64,000 bases of DNA from Natrinema salinisoli (GTDB lineage Archaea; Halobacteriota; Halobacteria; Halobacteriales; Natrialbaceae), in contig NZ_CP084469.1 in the NCBI RefSeq assembly GCF_020405205.1, positions 868,001 through 932,000 on the forward strand, given 5' to 3'. The notes under the pieces are model-generated. The model was not told where the DNA came from and searched no databases. It was given only the letters and a program-made list of their open reading frames with translations. Positions 8,241 through 15,366 of the stretch are shown piece after piece (position 1 is the first letter of the stretch; each line of letters starts with the position of its first letter). Position numbers and translations under genes: made by a program.

Positions 8241-8876
8241 TCACCGCGGCCGCGCAACAATCCCCAGATGATCCGCGTGATACTCCTCGAGCCCCCGCGC
8301 CTCTAGAACCTCGTACCCCTCCGACAGATCCTCGCGAACGTCCTCGAACACGGCCGCAGGCTCTCGAATCACGTCTTCACTCCGCGCCTTCACCGCCAAC
8401 AACAACCGCCCGTCGTCGGCCAGGAACTGCCGGTTCTCGAGCGCGACCCGCGCCTGCCCCCGCGTCGCCACGTCCTGCACGATCACGTCCACGTCCGACT
8501 CGACGACGTGGGCGTAAGTCTCTGGCTTCCGGGCGTCCTTCAGGAGCGGAAAGAGCCGCTCGCGCGAGTCCGCGGCCTCGAGCAGGTCCCGGACCGGCCG
8601 CGGGGCGAACTCCACCGCGTAGGTCGGCCCGGCGAAATCCGCGACGTGGCTCACGGTCGTCCCGCTCGCCGCACCCAGATAGAGGACCGTTTCGCCCCCC
8701 GAGAGGGCGGTGTCCATCCCCAGCTCGAGCATGGCACCCAACTTCGACCGGTGAGGGTTCCACGCCCGCCACTCGCCGTCGGTGGGCTCGCCGTAGACCG
8801 GCTCCCCTCGAGTTGCAAGTCGCTCGGTCCCGTCGAATTCGCGGCGCTGGACTCCCGCCGGAAGCCCCTCACTCAT
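8241..8876 (-). CDS. flpA: Fibrillarin-like rRNA/tRNA 2'-O-methyltransferase
   Basis: 211 residues. Catalytic subunit of the archaeal box C/D RNP, which transfers a methyl group from SAM to 2'-OH sites selected by guide RNAs. The SAM-binding glycine loop ETVLYLGAASGTTVSHVAD follows the fibrillarin segment EWRAWNPHRSKLGAMLE; an acidic strand end VDVIVQDVA and LLLAVKARSED complete the Rossmann fold. ATG 8876 is chosen because GGAGGTG lies six bases before it; the GTG at 8885 is part of that ribosome-binding site. The gene overlaps the end of the NOP5 gene by eight bases, and the two are certainly one operon. Confidence 0.95.
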   Translation of the reverse strand: MSEGLPAGVQRREFDGTERLATRGEPVYGEPTDGEWRAWNPHRSKLGAMLELGMDTALSGGETVLYLGAASGTTVSHVADFAGPTYAVEFAPRPVRDLLEAADSRERLFPLLKDARKPETYAHVVESDVDVIVQDVATRGQARVALENRQFLADDGRLLLAVKARSEDVIREPAAVFEDVREDLSEGYEVLEARGLEEYHADHLGIVARPR

Positions 8877-9753
8877 CGTCCGCACCTCCGTCGGTCCCGG
8901 CGTCTTCGTCCGTCGTCCGGGCCTGAATCGTCTCGATTCGTTCGGCCAGTTCGGCCTCGAGTTCGGGCTTCAACTCGCCCGAGTAGTGATCGACGCGGGC
9001 CGCGATCGAGAGTTTCCCGGCCACCGCACGCGCCGCCGAGCCCCGATTCTCGGGGTGGGTCCCCCGTACCGCGTCGTGCGTGTAGATGATCCCGTGCTTG
9101 GGCGACGGCGCGTGTCCGCGCAGGTGGGCGAACAGCGCGTCCTCCGCGCCGAGCACCTGCACGGTCCCGCTTGGCTTCTTCGCGAGCGCCTCGAGCCCCC
9201 CGGCGAGGGAGATCAGCCGCGCCGCGAGGACCGGCTCCGCCAGCGCCGAGAGGTTCGGCGCGACGGCCGGCGTCTGACGCTCGACGAACTCCCGGAGCTC
9301 GTCGGCCTCGTCCGCGAGGCCGGCCACCCGTTCGGCGAGCGAGCGGATCGCGGGCTCCTCGAGTCCGTCCTCGCTCTCGCCGCGAGCCAGCGTTCGCGCG
9401 TACTCGACGCCGGTCCCGGCGTCGGGATCGACGGTGCCGGCCCACTCCGCCAGGCGCTCGGCGAGTTCGTTCGCCGTCCGACTGCAGTCGTCCATCGCCC
9501 TGATCGCGTGAACCAGCTGCTGATCGTCCGCCCGCTCGCGCTCGCGCACCTCCGCTCGAGTCGCGGCCATCGTCGCCTCGTGCAGTCGGTCGTAGTAGTC
9601 GTCTTTGTCGTCCGCGAAGCCAGCATCAACCGCTTGCGCGGGCCAGTCTGCCGGTCGGTTCGCGTTTCCCTGGTCGATGGCGTCGCGGGCTGCATCTCTG
9701 TCACCGGGATCGACGTCGCGGAACCAGGCGGAGTCCGACGGTTCGGTAGTCAT
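8869..9753 (-). CDS. NOP5/NOP56 family box C/D RNP core protein
   Basis: 294 residues. Scaffold of the archaeal box C/D RNP: its N-terminal part binds fibrillarin, a coiled coil dimerises it, and the C-terminal Nop domain binds L7Ae and guide RNA. Visible segments are NLSALAEPVLAARLISLAG (start of the Nop domain), LEALAKKPSGTVQVLGAEDA and LRGHAPSPKHGIIYTH, the Nop signature. The C-terminus is an acidic tail instead of a basic KKx tail, as usual in haloarchaea. The ATG at 9753 is preceded by TTTATAAG about 20-27 bp upstream, so the operon is probably leaderless. Confidence 0.95.
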   Translation of the reverse strand: MTTEPSDSAWFRDVDPGDRDAARDAIDQGNANRPADWPAQAVDAGFADDKDDYYDRLHEATMAATRAEVRERERADDQQLVHAIRAMDDCSRTANELAERLAEWAGTVDPDAGTGVEYARTLARGESEDGLEEPAIRSLAERVAGLADEADELREFVERQTPAVAPNLSALAEPVLAARLISLAGGLEALAKKPSGTVQVLGAEDALFAHLRGHAPSPKHGIIYTHDAVRGTHPENRGSAARAVAGKLSIAARVDHYSGELKPELEAELAERIETIQARTTDEDAGTDGGADDE

Positions 9754-10146
9754 CTATCGACGTTAGACGCCCGGCTTATAAATGAGCTTTCGAATATCGA
9801 CCGATCATTCGAGGATTTCAGCGTCGAACCGTCGTGTCCGCCCTTTGCAGGGGGCCGCGAATACAGTTCGTTCGGTCGATCGCTTCGCTCCGAATCGTGT
9901 TTCGTTCTACCCATCAAGAAACTTACCTACCTGATAGGGTTAGATAAACCGAATACGCCGTCTAAAACCAGACAAAAACTTATAATTTGGCAATTGCTGA
10001 CATTACCTGGGGGTATCACGAATAACCGTGATAAAGCGAACGAACTATCGAGATGGTACCGGGAACGAGCCCTGCCCGAAACCGGTGATGGGGCCGCGAT
10101 TGCAACGAGACGCAATCGGTATTACACACGTCGAAGGGAGGGAGAA
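9754..10146. promoter_or_regulatory. Divergent promoter region between nop5 and the four-gene cluster
   Basis: 393 bp without a gene. The left end holds the minus-strand TATA box of the nop5-flpA operon (about 9770-9780). On the plus strand ACTTATAATTTGG (about 9978-9990) is the best TATA box for the four-gene cluster, predicting a leader of roughly 130 bases, unusual here where most genes are leaderless. A small inverted pair GGGTATCACG / CGTGATAAAG (about 10012-10037) lies in that leader. A purine-rich AGGGAGGGAG immediately precedes the ATG at 10147 and acts as ribosome-binding site. Confidence 0.5.
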
Positions 10147-11403
10147 ATGTACTTCACCCTGAAAATCGTTCGATTCCTGTTCGGGCTCGTATTCAAAGTC
10201 GTCCTGTTTCCGTTCAAGCTGGTTTGGAGGGCTGCCGGGAAACAGTTCTCCTCGACGGATCGGCTCGAGGACGGCCTCCGCGCCGAGACGGACTCATCGC
10301 CAGCAGGAGAGAGCGGAGAGAAACCGACCGGCGTATCGGCAGACGATGCCGGGACAGCCTCGGAGGGAAGGAGCAGAAGCGAACGGAATATCCGCTGGTT
10401 CCGGAAGGGGCTGATCGCTATCGGTGCACTCCAACTCGGGTTGGGAACACTTAGCGTGTTCGCGGCGTTCAGTAGGCCAGCCGGATTGGGCTTTCCCCAA
10501 CTGGCTGTATTCCTGTTAGTACTTGTCATCGTGGCGCTCGTCCCCTTGATCGCCGGTATCGGGTTATCCCGGCTAGCAACGCCGTCGTGGTACCTGGGAA
10601 TGCTCGTTTGCGGGTTCAATACCGTTGTCTCGCTGTTCGCCTTCCCGGCAGGGCTCGTGACAGTGATCCTGTTTGGGGGACTGTGCTATCTCGGTTACAC
10701 CGGACGGCCCGCACTCTCGCGGGTCTACGGCGCCGGGTTGACGACCGATTCAGAAACGCCCCGAACCGAGGAACAAGCGGAACTCGACCCGAAGCAGGGC
10801 GTCGCCGTCGCAGACTCGACTGCCGAGTCGAGGACCGATGCCACGACATCGCCACTCGACCAGTCGTCGAATTCTGAGAGTACCGGTGGTGGCCCGTCAG
10901 CCGCTGCCGATACCGAACCGGAGCCGACTGCTCCCTCATCGTCGGTGACAGCCAATACGCAGCAAACCGTCGCGTCCGCGGATGATGACGGAGCTACCTC
11001 GACGACCGATTCGCCAGTGGCCGACGAGGACGTCCGGGCGGTAGCAGCAGACGCCGCCGAACGAGAGGACAGCGTGGACACCGAGCCGGGCTCTCACGGT
11101 GGCACTCCGGATGCGCTCGATGGTCTCGAGGCGAAGCTCAACGACGACCAGCCGTCGACTCGGAAGGCTGCCGTCGAGGAACTCGCGGACGGCGTCAGTG
11201 AAAACGCCATTCCAACCGGACCCGCAGCTGACGCGATAACCGCTCGTCTCGACGACCCGGACGCGGACGTCCGCGTCGCCGCCTGTGACGCGATCGGACG
11301 GCTCGAGATTAGCCAGGCGAAATCGTCCCTCCGTGATCTCCGTATCGATCCCGACAGAGAGGTGAGTCGTGCAGCAAGCCGCGCACTTCGTCAATTGAAA
11401 TGA
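10147..11403 (+). CDS. Membrane protein with C-terminal HEAT repeats (cluster gene 1)
   Basis: 418 residues. The start ATG 10147 directly follows a strong purine-rich ribosome-binding site; the frame stays open much further upstream, but that extension is the shadow of the nop5 gene. Residues 5-27 are amphipathic or membrane-embedded (FTLKIVRFLFGLVFKVVLF). Residues 86-108, 117-140 and 147-186 form three to four membrane helices. A 120-residue acidic Ser/Thr-rich linker follows (about 198-318). Residues 322-418 are HEAT-type repeats: AVEELADGVSENAIP, ARLDDPDADVRVAACDAIG and DREVSRAASRALRQLK. It looks like a membrane anchor with a cytoplasmic protein-binding arm. It leads a four-gene cluster; the next gene starts 90 bp downstream. 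No known family function. Confidence 0.75.
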   Translation: MYFTLKIVRFLFGLVFKVVLFPFKLVWRAAGKQFSSTDRLEDGLRAETDSSPAGESGEKPTGVSADDAGTASEGRSRSERNIRWFRKGLIAIGALQLGLGTLSVFAAFSRPAGLGFPQLAVFLLVLVIVALVPLIAGIGLSRLATPSWYLGMLVCGFNTVVSLFAFPAGLVTVILFGGLCYLGYTGRPALSRVYGAGLTTDSETPRTEEQAELDPKQGVAVADSTAESRTDATTSPLDQSSNSESTGGGPSAAADTEPEPTAPSSSVTANTQQTVASADDDGATSTTDSPVADEDVRAVAADAAEREDSVDTEPGSHGGTPDALDGLEAKLNDDQPSTRKAAVEELADGVSENAIPTGPAADAITARLDDPDADVRVAACDAIGRLEISQAKSSLRDLRIDPDREVSRAASRALRQLK

Positions 11404-11493
11404 CTCGATCAATCAGAACCGTTTCCACACCAGTGGTATCGGACGGGAAATCCCGAGAACACGTGTCGTTCCGGCTCGACGGGGGTGACACCT

Positions 11494-13176
11494 GTGCGCG
11501 TCAGTAGTGTTCTCTACGAAGGAGACGACGGCGTCGATCAAACGGATGCACAGGCACTCGCAATTAACGAGGTGCTGCGAGAACCCCTCTCGGAGCAACT
11601 CGAGCAACAACGAACCCGGCTGCGGTACGTGGTCGGAGTGAGCGCTGCCGCAGTAGTGGCGGGTATCGGAGCGTTCCTCGCGAGTGTGGGGGCCGCTATC
11701 GGCGGTGGGCTCGTGATCGCCGGGATCGCAATCGGTGGCGGTGGCTACAAATATCTCACCTCTCAGGACCCCGATATCACCGTCAAGTCGGTCCAGAAGG
11801 GGTATTGGACGGGGCACTGTCTCCCAGTTCAGGATGGCACGGTCGTCTACGATGCGACGAACTCGCTGGAGACAACCGCCTTCGAACTCGAGAGTCTTCG
11901 CGACGAAAGCGCCGTTACCGATGCGTATGAACAGCTGACGGACATCGAGGACCTCCCGGTGGTAATGAATCGGGACGACCCGATCGAGGTGACAGTTACG
12001 AATACGCTCGATCACGTCCAATCACAGATCGAGAACGCCGAACAATACACCGTCGAAGCGCCGATCGTTGCGGGGTCAGACCCGGAAGCTGATGCCGTTG
12101 AGACGTTTGCTTCGATGGCCAACGCTGGGGACAGTGTCTCGGCTCCCGTCGACGTAAGCGTCGAGAAAGCGGAGTCGGCTATCGAAGAGTTAGATGAGTT
12201 AGAGCAGATGGCCACGGAAGACGGTGCTGAGGCTGATCTGGAGTCGCTTTCCGATACGAGCCGCGAGTTGGCCGGCGAGTTGTCGGGACTACAGGACACG
12301 GCGATCGACCTCCTCAACGACCACATCAGCATGGCTGCCGACGCATTCGGGATGGTGAGCTACAACTTCTACTGCCCGGACTGCCAGACGGACGATATCG
12401 AATCCACGGTCGAACTTTCGGATCCACAGGCCGGTGACTGGTACTGTGAAACCTGTCGGACTACCCACGGAACGGACGCGGTCGTCCCCCGCCATCGGAT
12501 CAAAGACGATATCGTCAATCCCGTCTGGGACCAGTTGTGGGTCGAGAAGGACGATCAACGGCGTGAACTGTACGAGAACATCGAGGACCAGAAGTCCGAA
12601 CTCCACGAGCGCGAGTTCGAGCAACGCAGTGAGGAAATACGGACGACCACCGACCGAATCCGCGATCTCCGGTCCCGGATACGTGACCTGAAGACGGAAG
12701 CAAAGGCGGCAGAGGGCAAAGTTTCGGAAATTGGCGATCTGATGGTCAAATACGAGCGACTCAACGAACAGCGCAAAAGCGAGTTCGAGCAGGAAGTGGA
12801 AGCGTCGTTCTCCGAAATCGACGCGAAGACGGACCGCATCCTGGAGGAAACGCGCAACGAGGAGCAAGAACGCATCGAGAACGCCGAACAGGCTGCAAAA
12901 GAGAAGGCGGAGATCATGCGCGAAGAAAAACGACGCCGCGAGGTCGAGAAATTCGTCGCCGCGCAAGAGCGGGAGGACGCGCGCGTTGCGGCTCAGATGG
13001 AACACGAACAGCGCCTTCACGACGACGAAATCGCGGTCGAGAAGCAACACCACCGCGAGGATTGGATGCTGGAAACACGCGGTCGGACATCGTTCTCCGG
13101 TGCCGTCAACAGGTATCGGATGAAGAAGGATCGGCTGTTGGGTGCCTCCGCCCGCACCCACGGGGGTGAGAAGTAA
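11494..13176 (+). CDS. Membrane hairpin / zinc-ribbon / coiled-coil protein (cluster gene 2)
   Basis: 560 residues. Start: GTG 11494 has GGGGGTGA seven bases upstream, better than the GTG at 11485, which lies inside that site. Residues 44-85 form a glycine-rich membrane hairpin (VVGVSAAAVVAGIGAFLASV and GGGLVIAGIAIGGGG). A soluble region (95-285) is followed by a zinc ribbon with CPDC at 294-297 and CETC at 318-321. Residues about 350-530 form a long, highly charged coiled coil rich in Glu, Arg and Lys. The tail is basic (NRYRMKKDRL). The TAA stop overlaps the ATG of the next gene by one base. I do not recognise the family. The design suggests a membrane-tethered rod or a scaffold that bundles with the coiled-coil product of the next gene. 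Confidence 0.75.
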   Translation: MRVSSVLYEGDDGVDQTDAQALAINEVLREPLSEQLEQQRTRLRYVVGVSAAAVVAGIGAFLASVGAAIGGGLVIAGIAIGGGGYKYLTSQDPDITVKSVQKGYWTGHCLPVQDGTVVYDATNSLETTAFELESLRDESAVTDAYEQLTDIEDLPVVMNRDDPIEVTVTNTLDHVQSQIENAEQYTVEAPIVAGSDPEADAVETFASMANAGDSVSAPVDVSVEKAESAIEELDELEQMATEDGAEADLESLSDTSRELAGELSGLQDTAIDLLNDHISMAADAFGMVSYNFYCPDCQTDDIESTVELSDPQAGDWYCETCRTTHGTDAVVPRHRIKDDIVNPVWDQLWVEKDDQRRELYENIEDQKSELHEREFEQRSEEIRTTTDRIRDLRSRIRDLKTEAKAAEGKVSEIGDLMVKYERLNEQRKSEFEQEVEASFSEIDAKTDRILEETRNEEQERIENAEQAAKEKAEIMREEKRRREVEKFVAAQEREDARVAAQMEHEQRLHDDEIAVEKQHHREDWMLETRGRTSFSGAVNRYRMKKDRLLGASARTHGGEK

Positions 13177-14120
13177 TGCCGAACGAGGACCTTCTCAAGC
13201 CGCTCAAAGCGATCAACCAGACCATAGCTCGGCTTCGGGAAGATGTCCAGAAGCTGACTGGAGAAGTCGAGAAAATCAAAACGGCGGTGACTGAAGCTGC
13301 ACAGAGCATTCGGGACGCGATACACGAGAATATTCAGGCACAGGCGGAACTGAAGCTGATGGAATACGTAATGGAGGTAAAGTCCGTGAAACCGCAAATC
13401 GAGGCGGAGCACGAACAGATCCGTACCGAACGCTCCGAGTTGGACGAACGGCTACAGGCGATCAACGACCGCTACGCCGAAAAACATCGAGATCTCGACG
13501 AGACCGCTCAGGAGCGGATTCGCAATCTTGGCTCGCACATTTTCGAGATTGACGAAGAGCAGTTCGAGGAGGGTATCGAGCGCCCGTTCACGAAACAAGT
13601 CACCACCTCTTGGCAGGTACTGCAAGGTCACAATGCCGCGGTGGGTGAAGAGCGTTCGACGGCCGTCAGGGAGACAACGAGCGAGACCGTTCAAACGATT
13701 CACGATTATATCGATCGACAGGATCAACTGCTGGAACAGATCGATGATCACCGACTCGATCCATTGGACCGGTCGCTGCCGAGCGAAGAAGCCACGCCAT
13801 TGCAGGTACCGTACTACGTAATCGAATACGAGCACGACGGTGTGCAGACACGGAAGACGATCGTTCCGTCGCGACTGTCCGATGGCGGCACCGACTGGTG
13901 TTCCGTCTCGCTGGAGTCGATCCCCGGAAGCGACGAACTAATCGCTGGCGCCGGTCGTGTGAGCGATCCGGAGCGGAAGGAGAGGCTCTCGAGAGAGCAG
14001 GTTCGCGACTCACTCGAGGAGTACGGTGAGCAGTCACCGCTCGGGATCTCCTATACCGATGCAGTAGCCGAAACGATTCCGAAAGAAGACGTCACCGTCG
14101 AACACGAGGTGGACGACTGA
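13176..14120 (+). CDS. Coiled-coil protein of unknown function (cluster gene 3)
   Basis: 314 residues, soluble, no signal or membrane segment. Residues about 8-145 are a coiled coil in two blocks (NQTIARLREDVQKLTGEVEK and AEHEQIRTERSELDERLQAI), followed by a helical region to 195. Residues 205-250 look like a small beta domain (VPYYVIEYEHDGVQTRKTIV) and the end is acidic. The start ATG 13176 shares its A with the TAA stop of gene 2, and its own TGA (14118-14120) overlaps the ATG of gene 4, so all three are translationally coupled. The coiled coil probably pairs with that of gene 2. No family recognised. Confidence 0.75.
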   Translation: MPNEDLLKPLKAINQTIARLREDVQKLTGEVEKIKTAVTEAAQSIRDAIHENIQAQAELKLMEYVMEVKSVKPQIEAEHEQIRTERSELDERLQAINDRYAEKHRDLDETAQERIRNLGSHIFEIDEEQFEEGIERPFTKQVTTSWQVLQGHNAAVGEERSTAVRETTSETVQTIHDYIDRQDQLLEQIDDHRLDPLDRSLPSEEATPLQVPYYVIEYEHDGVQTRKTIVPSRLSDGGTDWCSVSLESIPGSDELIAGAGRVSDPERKERLSREQVRDSLEEYGEQSPLGISYTDAVAETIPKEDVTVEHEVDD

Positions 14121-14926
14121 TGGCAGACATGGAAGCTACGCGGGCAGTCGTAGAGGCATCGGAGACGTATGATGGTCGAATCTTCCCGACTGAGAAGGCG
14201 GAGATCGACCGTCCAGTACGGATACGCGAATCCGCGACGGTCAAGGGGAGTATCTATGGAGGGACAGTTGAAGGAGATCCGAACGCTTCGGTCCAGGGAT
14301 CCGTGATGGCGGCCGAGTCCGCTGAACTCGATGAGAGCCATATCGGAGGCGAACTCGGCAGTCCCGGTAAGATCGTTGCGACCGGCTCCCGGATCGACGG
14401 CACCGTTACTGGGAAGCGCGTCCGGTTAATCGATTGTGTCGTCAGGGGGAACGTCGTCGGAAGCGAGGTTATTCTCGAGAATTGCATCGTCCTCGGCATT
14501 GCGACTGCTGAGCGCTCACTCACTGTCGAGGATTCGCTCTGTTACACCGTCCGTGGCCAAGGAGAGACTCGTCTCGACAGGACTACACTGGTGCTCCCAC
14601 AGGCGATTGTTGACGGGACGCTCGAGCTCCCAACGCCCGTTGAGGTAGCCGCGCTGGGAGAAATCGAAGTCGAAGACGACTCTGAAGGCCGGTTACCGAA
14701 AATGACCAGTGACGACCTCTACGAACAAAACGGGACGACGTATCTCACGCTTGCCCCCCGGATTCTCAATTTGGAAAAAGTCACGGACCGACTCGAGGAA
14801 CTCGAAACGGGAGTTATGTCGGCTGTCGACGATACGAGCGGCGACGAAGGAACCGACATGAGTGTTGACGACGTGTTCGACCTGCTCGACATCAGCCACG
14901 ATTCGGCGGTCGACTCGGACGGATAG
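14120..14926 (+). CDS. Bactofilin/halofilin-like beta-solenoid protein (cluster gene 4)
   Basis: 268 residues. Residues about 25-180 consist of short repeated rungs with small and charged side chains and regularly spaced Gly/Val/Ile: ATVKGSIYGGTVEGDPNASV, GSVMAAESAELDESHIGGEL, GKIVATGSRIDGTVTGKRV and VVRGNVVGSEVILENCIV. This is the signature of a polymer-forming right-handed beta-helix such as bactofilins and the haloarchaeal halofilins, which self-assemble into filaments at the membrane. After the helix comes a linker and a predicted short coiled coil (ILNLEKVTDRLEELETGV) with an acidic tail. Its start overlaps the stop of gene 3. Bactofilins shape bacterial cells and halofilins affect haloarchaeal cell shape; a like role here is inference. 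Hexapeptide-type acyltransferases are the main alternative, but catalytic residues are not evident. Confidence 0.68.
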   Translation: MADMEATRAVVEASETYDGRIFPTEKAEIDRPVRIRESATVKGSIYGGTVEGDPNASVQGSVMAAESAELDESHIGGELGSPGKIVATGSRIDGTVTGKRVRLIDCVVRGNVVGSEVILENCIVLGIATAERSLTVEDSLCYTVRGQGETRLDRTTLVLPQAIVDGTLELPTPVEVAALGEIEVEDDSEGRLPKMTSDDLYEQNGTTYLTLAPRILNLEKVTDRLEELETGVMSAVDDTSGDEGTDMSVDDVFDLLDISHDSAVDSDG

Positions 14927-15366
14927 ACGGGGGAGACACCAACCGCTGGCGATCGAACGCTATTCGAGAAACGGCGGATCACTGTGGTCTACCTCGGGTA
15001 ACCGCGGACGCCGTGCCAACCGAAACGCGTCGGAAACGACCACACCTCGGGAGGACGGTGCAACAGTTCGGTCGACACGAACGGCACTTTCGAGCGCGAG
15101 AACGGGTCAGGTTCGGCGCTCGTGGTCTCTCGAGTCCCTCAACTGCCTTCGAGACGTCTTCGGCATTGGGGCCGACTGTTCGGTACGATCGTATCACCGA
15201 CGACAACATTGTGGCCGACGACCTGTAACGGTCGGTCGTCGGTGAATCGACCGACGCCGCGATATTCTCGAACGTACATTCGTTTCGACGGTTCGTCAGC
15301 TTCGAGACGATCGAACTCGGTAGTGGTTACAGGGACTGAACCGCCGAAAAAACCGAACCGAGCCGA
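14927..15366. other. Intergenic region, 440 bp
   Basis: Between the convergent cluster and the DUF63 gene. It is GC-rich with several short open frames of arginine-rich, shadow-like composition. I see no gene, RNA or repeat in it. Confidence 0.5.

Follow-up and report, generated by a model that had tools for sequence, protein, structure and literature searches.

A conserved three-gene unit of Natrinema salinisoli that adjoins kinase and ESCRT genes in other archaea and may encode a membrane-anchored scaffold

Three consecutive genes of Natrinema salinisoli, here termed g2, g3 and g4, form a conserved unit that in some other archaeal genomes lies beside a Ser/Thr kinase (STK) gene and genes of an ESCRT system, an adjacency newly found in this work. 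The original prediction had grouped them with an upstream gene, g1, as a four-gene membrane-bound scaffold for shape, division or envelope patterning, an interpretation that our analysis partly supports. We give about equal weight for and against the view that g2–g4 constitute a scaffold, anchored in the membrane, that serves kinase-regulated ESCRT loci in some archaea and acts alone in others. What the prediction missed is that g1 is optional, that the cassette is mobile and that the core is connected with kinase and ESCRT genes in other genomes.

Layout of the operon and features of its products

We analysed a stretch of 64,000 nucleotides (the window), in whose ORF list all four ORFs occur with the order and coordinates originally described, g1 and g2 being 90 bp apart and the one-base overlaps occurring at g2/g3 (TAATG) and g3/g4 (TGATG). 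The GTG start of g2 is supported by relatives, which have ATG at the equivalent position. The only match above cut-off of any of the four products to the family libraries was that of the g1 HEAT repeats to Pfam HEAT_2 (39.6 bits versus a cut-off of 27.7). For g2, g3 and g4, Pfam and NCBIfam yielded no match above cut-off and PADLOC only weak ones, and the matches of the block's proteins in PDB sequence searches were at chance level or to coiled coils and were discarded. Since the order of g2–g4 recurs in other genera, their arrangement is not due to chance.

Table 1. Coordinates of the operon, its insertion site and the features of its products in the window
Feature	Position	Strand	Remarks
Cassette absent from congeners	9697..15348		Between nop5/fibrillarin flank (8339-9696) and DUF gene (15349 on)
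g1	10147..11403	+	418 aa; membrane protein with HEAT arm
g1 N-terminal amphipathic helix	~10153-10239	+	
g1 four hydrophobic segments	~10399-10716	+	
g1 long acidic linker		+	Between hydrophobic segments and HEAT repeats
g1 C-terminal HEAT repeats	~11116-11397	+	Pfam HEAT_2 above cut-off
g2	11494..13176	+	560 aa; TM hairpin, zinc ribbon, long coiled coil
g2 TM hairpin	~11629-11751	+	
g2 uncharacterised domain		+	Between TM hairpin and zinc ribbon
g2 zinc ribbon CxxC..CxxC	~12373-12456	+	Cysteines invariant in 15-sequence alignment
g2 long coiled coil	~12499-13140	+	Model helix, residues 336-549
g3	13176..14120	+	314 aa; soluble coiled coil and small C-terminal domain
g3 small C-terminal domain	~13788-14117	+	16-sequence alignment
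g4	14120..14926	+	268 aa; beta-solenoid, bactofilin-like
g4 beta-solenoid, bactofilin-like	~14216-14629	+	AF2 model; beta-helix structural matches
g4 C-terminal helix	~14771-14830	+	AF2 model

The AF2 model of g2, built from three sequences, was poor (pLDDT 52, with values of 84–91 only over about residues 431–510) and unsuited to fold searching. A match of g2 to a designed tendon repeat protein in the PDB search covered a helical stretch of 45 residues, and we regard it as compositional. The coiled coil of g3 gave weak matches of LemA and LiaX type, below cut-offs.

For g4, in turn, a model likewise built from three sequences has a confident beta-solenoid core (pLDDT 82–97 over about residues 31–150), whose best structural matches are beta-helices, with no Foldseek match at E below 0.001. 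That a membrane anchor, a coiled-coil rod and a putative bactofilin-like polymer together make up a membrane scaffold, as originally proposed, is compatible with these features and is the best reading of them, the exception being that g4 scores below the cut-off of Pfam Bactofilin (PF04519; 19.2 versus 27.9 bits), and we therefore call it bactofilin-like rather than a bactofilin. Its homologue in G432, a genome of another class of the phylum, scored 19.6 bits, and that at locus L058 gave no match. Structural comparison with VIA-align included no bactofilin entry among the matches listed, which does not exclude one. The window's genome has three other matches above the Bactofilin cut-off, and alignment of g4 to a bactofilin-family protein of its own genome gave an hhalign probability of 76 over only 52 columns. 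In its predicted small beta-solenoid of comparable repeat character and its weak Pfam similarity, g4 resembles bactofilins and halofilins, but it differs from them in falling below the family cut-off, in having a C-terminal helix and in being always encoded with g2 and g3.

Distribution, joint inheritance and the insertion site

A scan of the class found g2 in 15 of 391 genomes, belonging to 12 genera, and g4 in those same 15, further g4 matches being one remnant (G152) and others that were weak, among them a second match in G150. With Halorarius and G432, this makes 17 loci at which g2, g3 and g4 are co-linear in the same order and orientation, the exception to an intact core being G153, where the N-terminus of g2 is displaced; a conserved neighbourhood is thereby supported by synteny. 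In a scan centred on G432, this genome was the only carrier among three of its class. No relatives of g2 were found in plasmids or in the viral contigs searched, nor any of g4 in those viral contigs.

The three core genes are under strong purifying selection, with dN/dS values, from computed dN and dS against Halorubellus, of ~0.15 for g2, 0.20 for g3 and 0.13 for g4. Moreover, their pairwise distances correlate (r 0.92–0.95), and trees of the three genes show concordant main clades, with the ESCRT-linked clade recovered in each, so that g2, g3 and g4 travel together. The conserved unit is g2-g3-g4, and of the four genes first grouped together this part holds as a unit, but g1 is an optional partner. 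It lies next to the core but not at every locus: in the window's relatives it precedes the core, in another clade it follows it, and some g2–g4 loci lack it. Its homologues, sought with the window's g1 in twelve carriers, are confined to sites beside g2–g4, and its dN/dS against Halorubellus, computed likewise, is ~0.49. Two genomes (G108 and G194) have after g4 a gene for a small protein of 81 aa and about three hydrophobic segments (L009:1740-1985 and L050:11415-11660), which overlaps the g4 stop in L009; no such gene appeared at the remaining loci listed.

Eight congeners have the empty site, with nothing between the nop5/fibrillarin genes and the DUF gene found downstream of the operon in the window. 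It follows that the operon is an inserted segment of ~5.6 kb, a cassette that was gained in, or kept only by, the window's species. Its borders have no long repeats, putative target-site repeats being only 10-base matches at chance level, and the ORF list shows no transposase between them. For the window's clade, the best reading is a solo cassette that has spread by horizontal transfer. The Fibrillarin/Nop5-like pair immediately upstream, identified by reading, occupies window positions 8241-9753 on the opposite strand.

Kinase and ESCRT genes beside g2–g4 in other genomes

In all five g2-positive genomes with an ESCRT locus of the Main type, an STK gene is, or in one case formerly was, beside g2–g4. 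It adjoins g2 in G324, G177 and G174 (Pkinase above cut-off) and lies about 1.9 kb from it in G432. In G153, the ESCRT strip contains the kinase gene and, after it, a transposase-like ORF followed by a fragment for the first 55 residues of g2; the remaining g2, with g3, g4 and g1, lies about 0.6 Mb away from this displaced N-terminus, a layout that looks like a rearrangement of the kinase–g2 ESCRT arrangement. The remaining g2 of G153 is itself split over two frames (L059; N-terminal piece in L071, G153:C1:1488000-1505000).

An ESCRT core, comprising genes for a Vps4-like AAA protein, an ESCRT-III-like protein and arCOG09748-like and arCOG08177-like proteins, occurs within about 10 kb of g2–g4 in G324, G177 and G432. 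The strip in the first two encodes a zinc-ribbon protein, the arCOG09748-like and arCOG08177-like proteins, a small TM protein, the ESCRT-III-like protein and an ATPase with a helical N-terminus and a single AAA domain. In G432 the same set lies upstream of the g2–g4 core, from which it is separated by the kinase gene, a TM/coiled-coil gene and a gene whose 664-aa product reads as helical repeats. Two ATPase and ESCRT-III-like pairs are side by side in G432 (L070/L072), where a CetZ-like ORF, identified by reading, is also present about 10 kb upstream of the arCOG08177-like gene. Another seven loci, distributed over six genomes, contain the ESCRT core, and one of these genomes (G174) also has g2–g4; at six of the seven the ATPase gene adjoins the ESCRT-III-like gene, and in the strip fetched from the seventh (G211) only the arCOG08177-like and arCOG09748-like pair and a PP2C gene were seen.

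This composition matches that of the Main archaeal ESCRT, given in the main text of its description as Vps4, ESCRT-III, arCOG09748 and arCOG08177, often with STK and STP (PMC10936438); our arCOG labels follow that description and not the arCOG database, and the arCOG09748-like proteins of the two taxonomic classes, of 665 and 718 aa, are 35% identical over their length. The module thus lies in or beside a Main-type locus, next to the STK gene, in G324, G177 and G432, and G153 has a displaced remnant of this arrangement, but the main text of that paper does not name g2–g4 as components, and a Main-type locus is missing from most g2–g4 carriers, the window's genome included. Like the SPFH/zinc-ribbon/coiled-coil proteins described there for the Meth_adaptin ESCRT, g2 contains both a zinc ribbon and a long coiled coil, but it has a TM hairpin, no SPFH match and another domain order.

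Gene position and locus composition, but not sequence, support the identification of the ESCRT-III-like proteins (among them L073:3657-4331 and L072:17894 on): they gave no significant Snf7 match, a test made uninformative by a Sulfolobus control in which Pfam Snf7 also stayed below cut-off, and no match was obtained between the two ESCRT-III-like types. Among NCBIfam models, the Vps4-like AAA protein of G324 is closest to CdvC (NF041006), and one of the two G432 ATPases to CDC48 and then CdvC, in each case far below cut-off.

A Vps4-clade ATPase (439–489 bits) was found in five of 16 g2-positive genomes tested. The other 11, including the window's, had AAA matches of at most 294 bits and no arCOG09748-like gene, and thus ESCRT is not needed for the g2–g4 module. 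In the window's genome, where no arCOG09748-like match was found, the best AAA match reached 279 bits versus the 439–489 of ESCRT carriers. The STK type of the ESCRT-linked loci scored at most 154 bits in genomes with a solo module versus 668 in G174, with none at threshold in the window's genome. The latter encodes a 907-aa protein with two AAA domains, within which G000:C1:4026020-4027555 matches the Vps4-type profile at 279 and 263 bits; it outscores most other AAA proteins of that genome, and similar ORFs occur in G191 and G249.

Within the class, g2 and an arCOG09748-like gene co-occur in four genomes versus 0.77 expected (hypergeometric P 0.005), a value that overstates independence because the four ESCRT-linked haloarchaea form one clade. 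G432 is the independent case: belonging to another class, it likewise has the module next to STK and ESCRT genes, so that the link extends beyond a single clade.

Alternative readings and a proposed role

The three main rivals to the kinase-linked scaffold are, in descending order, a scaffold for shape alone, a module for membrane stress and a system of defence. According to the first, g2–g4 would be a halofilin- or bactofilin-type scaffold for shape or division with no ESCRT function, its adjacency to ESCRT genes being a late neighbourhood of one clade. Most carriers are indeed ESCRT-free, g4 weakly resembles bactofilin and halofilins control shape in Haloferax (PMC12186497), but the independent occurrence of the module beside STK and ESCRT genes in G432 runs against a single-clade neighbourhood, so sporadic a presence would be odd for a core shape system and g4 fails the family cut-off, all of which leaves this reading rather improbable in our judgement. 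The kinase and ESCRT connection elsewhere speaks for a part in membrane remodelling and not in cell shape only. We consider it unlikely that the operon acts instead in membrane stress or envelope integrity by a logic akin to that of LemA, PspA or LiaX, with g2 and g3 sensing or sealing damaged membrane and g4 and g1 as accessories: the TM hairpin with coiled coils, the patchy distribution, the kinase and PP2C genes of the linked loci and the g3 matches would all suit it, but the g3 matches do not reach cut-offs and are of a kind that any coiled coil gives, and the operon has no stress regulator.

Sporadic occurrence across genera, insertion as a cassette and STK neighbours are also what a mobile, patchy and undescribed anti-virus system with HEAT, coiled-coil and kinase partners might present. 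This is very unlikely, however, given that PADLOC-DB matches are weak and fall mostly on coiled-coil regions, that the core has no nuclease, NTPase or other effector, that no defence gene was recognised among the selected flank proteins scanned and that viral contigs yielded no relative. Least credible of all is that g4 is an enzyme, a hexapeptide acyltransferase or similar, with the other genes in support. Some family members do give weak LbH-type matches, but a 16-sequence alignment of g4 has no invariant or nearly invariant His and no invariant Cys, and LbH acyltransferases superpose poorly on the model, at about 10–11 A rmsd, in contrast to the beta-helices noted above. An acyltransferase is unlikely because there is no conserved His, and the result goes against the one outcome for g4 that the original prediction had named as fatal to itself, a catalytic acyltransferase.

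We thus favour the membrane-anchored scaffold, which the anatomy of anchor, adaptor and solenoid supports. The short TM hairpin of g2 would sit in the membrane, with its zinc ribbon and long coiled coil projecting into the cytoplasm; g3 would act as a soluble coiled-coil adaptor, most likely pairing with g2, and g4 would probably assemble on g2/g3 as a bactofilin-like structural element, the whole forming a cytoplasmic scaffold with its anchor in the archaeal membrane; to this scaffold g1 may contribute, as an optional fourth part, a second membrane component with a HEAT binding arm. Because g2–g4 are part of kinase-containing Main-type loci in the ESCRT-linked clade and in the distant class, the module there probably organises, or recruits to, membrane sites remodelled by ESCRT-III/Vps4, and its action at these loci may be under the control of Ser/Thr phosphorylation. 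In the window's clade, the solo module might pattern or bend the membrane without ESCRT.

More tentatively, and with doubts that outweigh our confidence, g2–g4 might represent an undescribed archaeal scaffold family, serving as a phosphorylation-controlled ESCRT-III/Vps4 platform in some archaea and reused elsewhere as an independent membrane-shaping device that spread horizontally; if so, they would constitute a prokaryotic adaptor that links the ESCRT machinery to a bactofilin-like solenoid. Knowledge of euryarchaeal ESCRT systems consists largely of lists of genes. The presence of g2–g4 beside the kinase of ESCRT loci in two classes provides a concrete, testable candidate for their anchoring or targeting to the membrane, and the stand-alone haloarchaeal copies would allow the scaffold to be studied apart from the rest of the machine.
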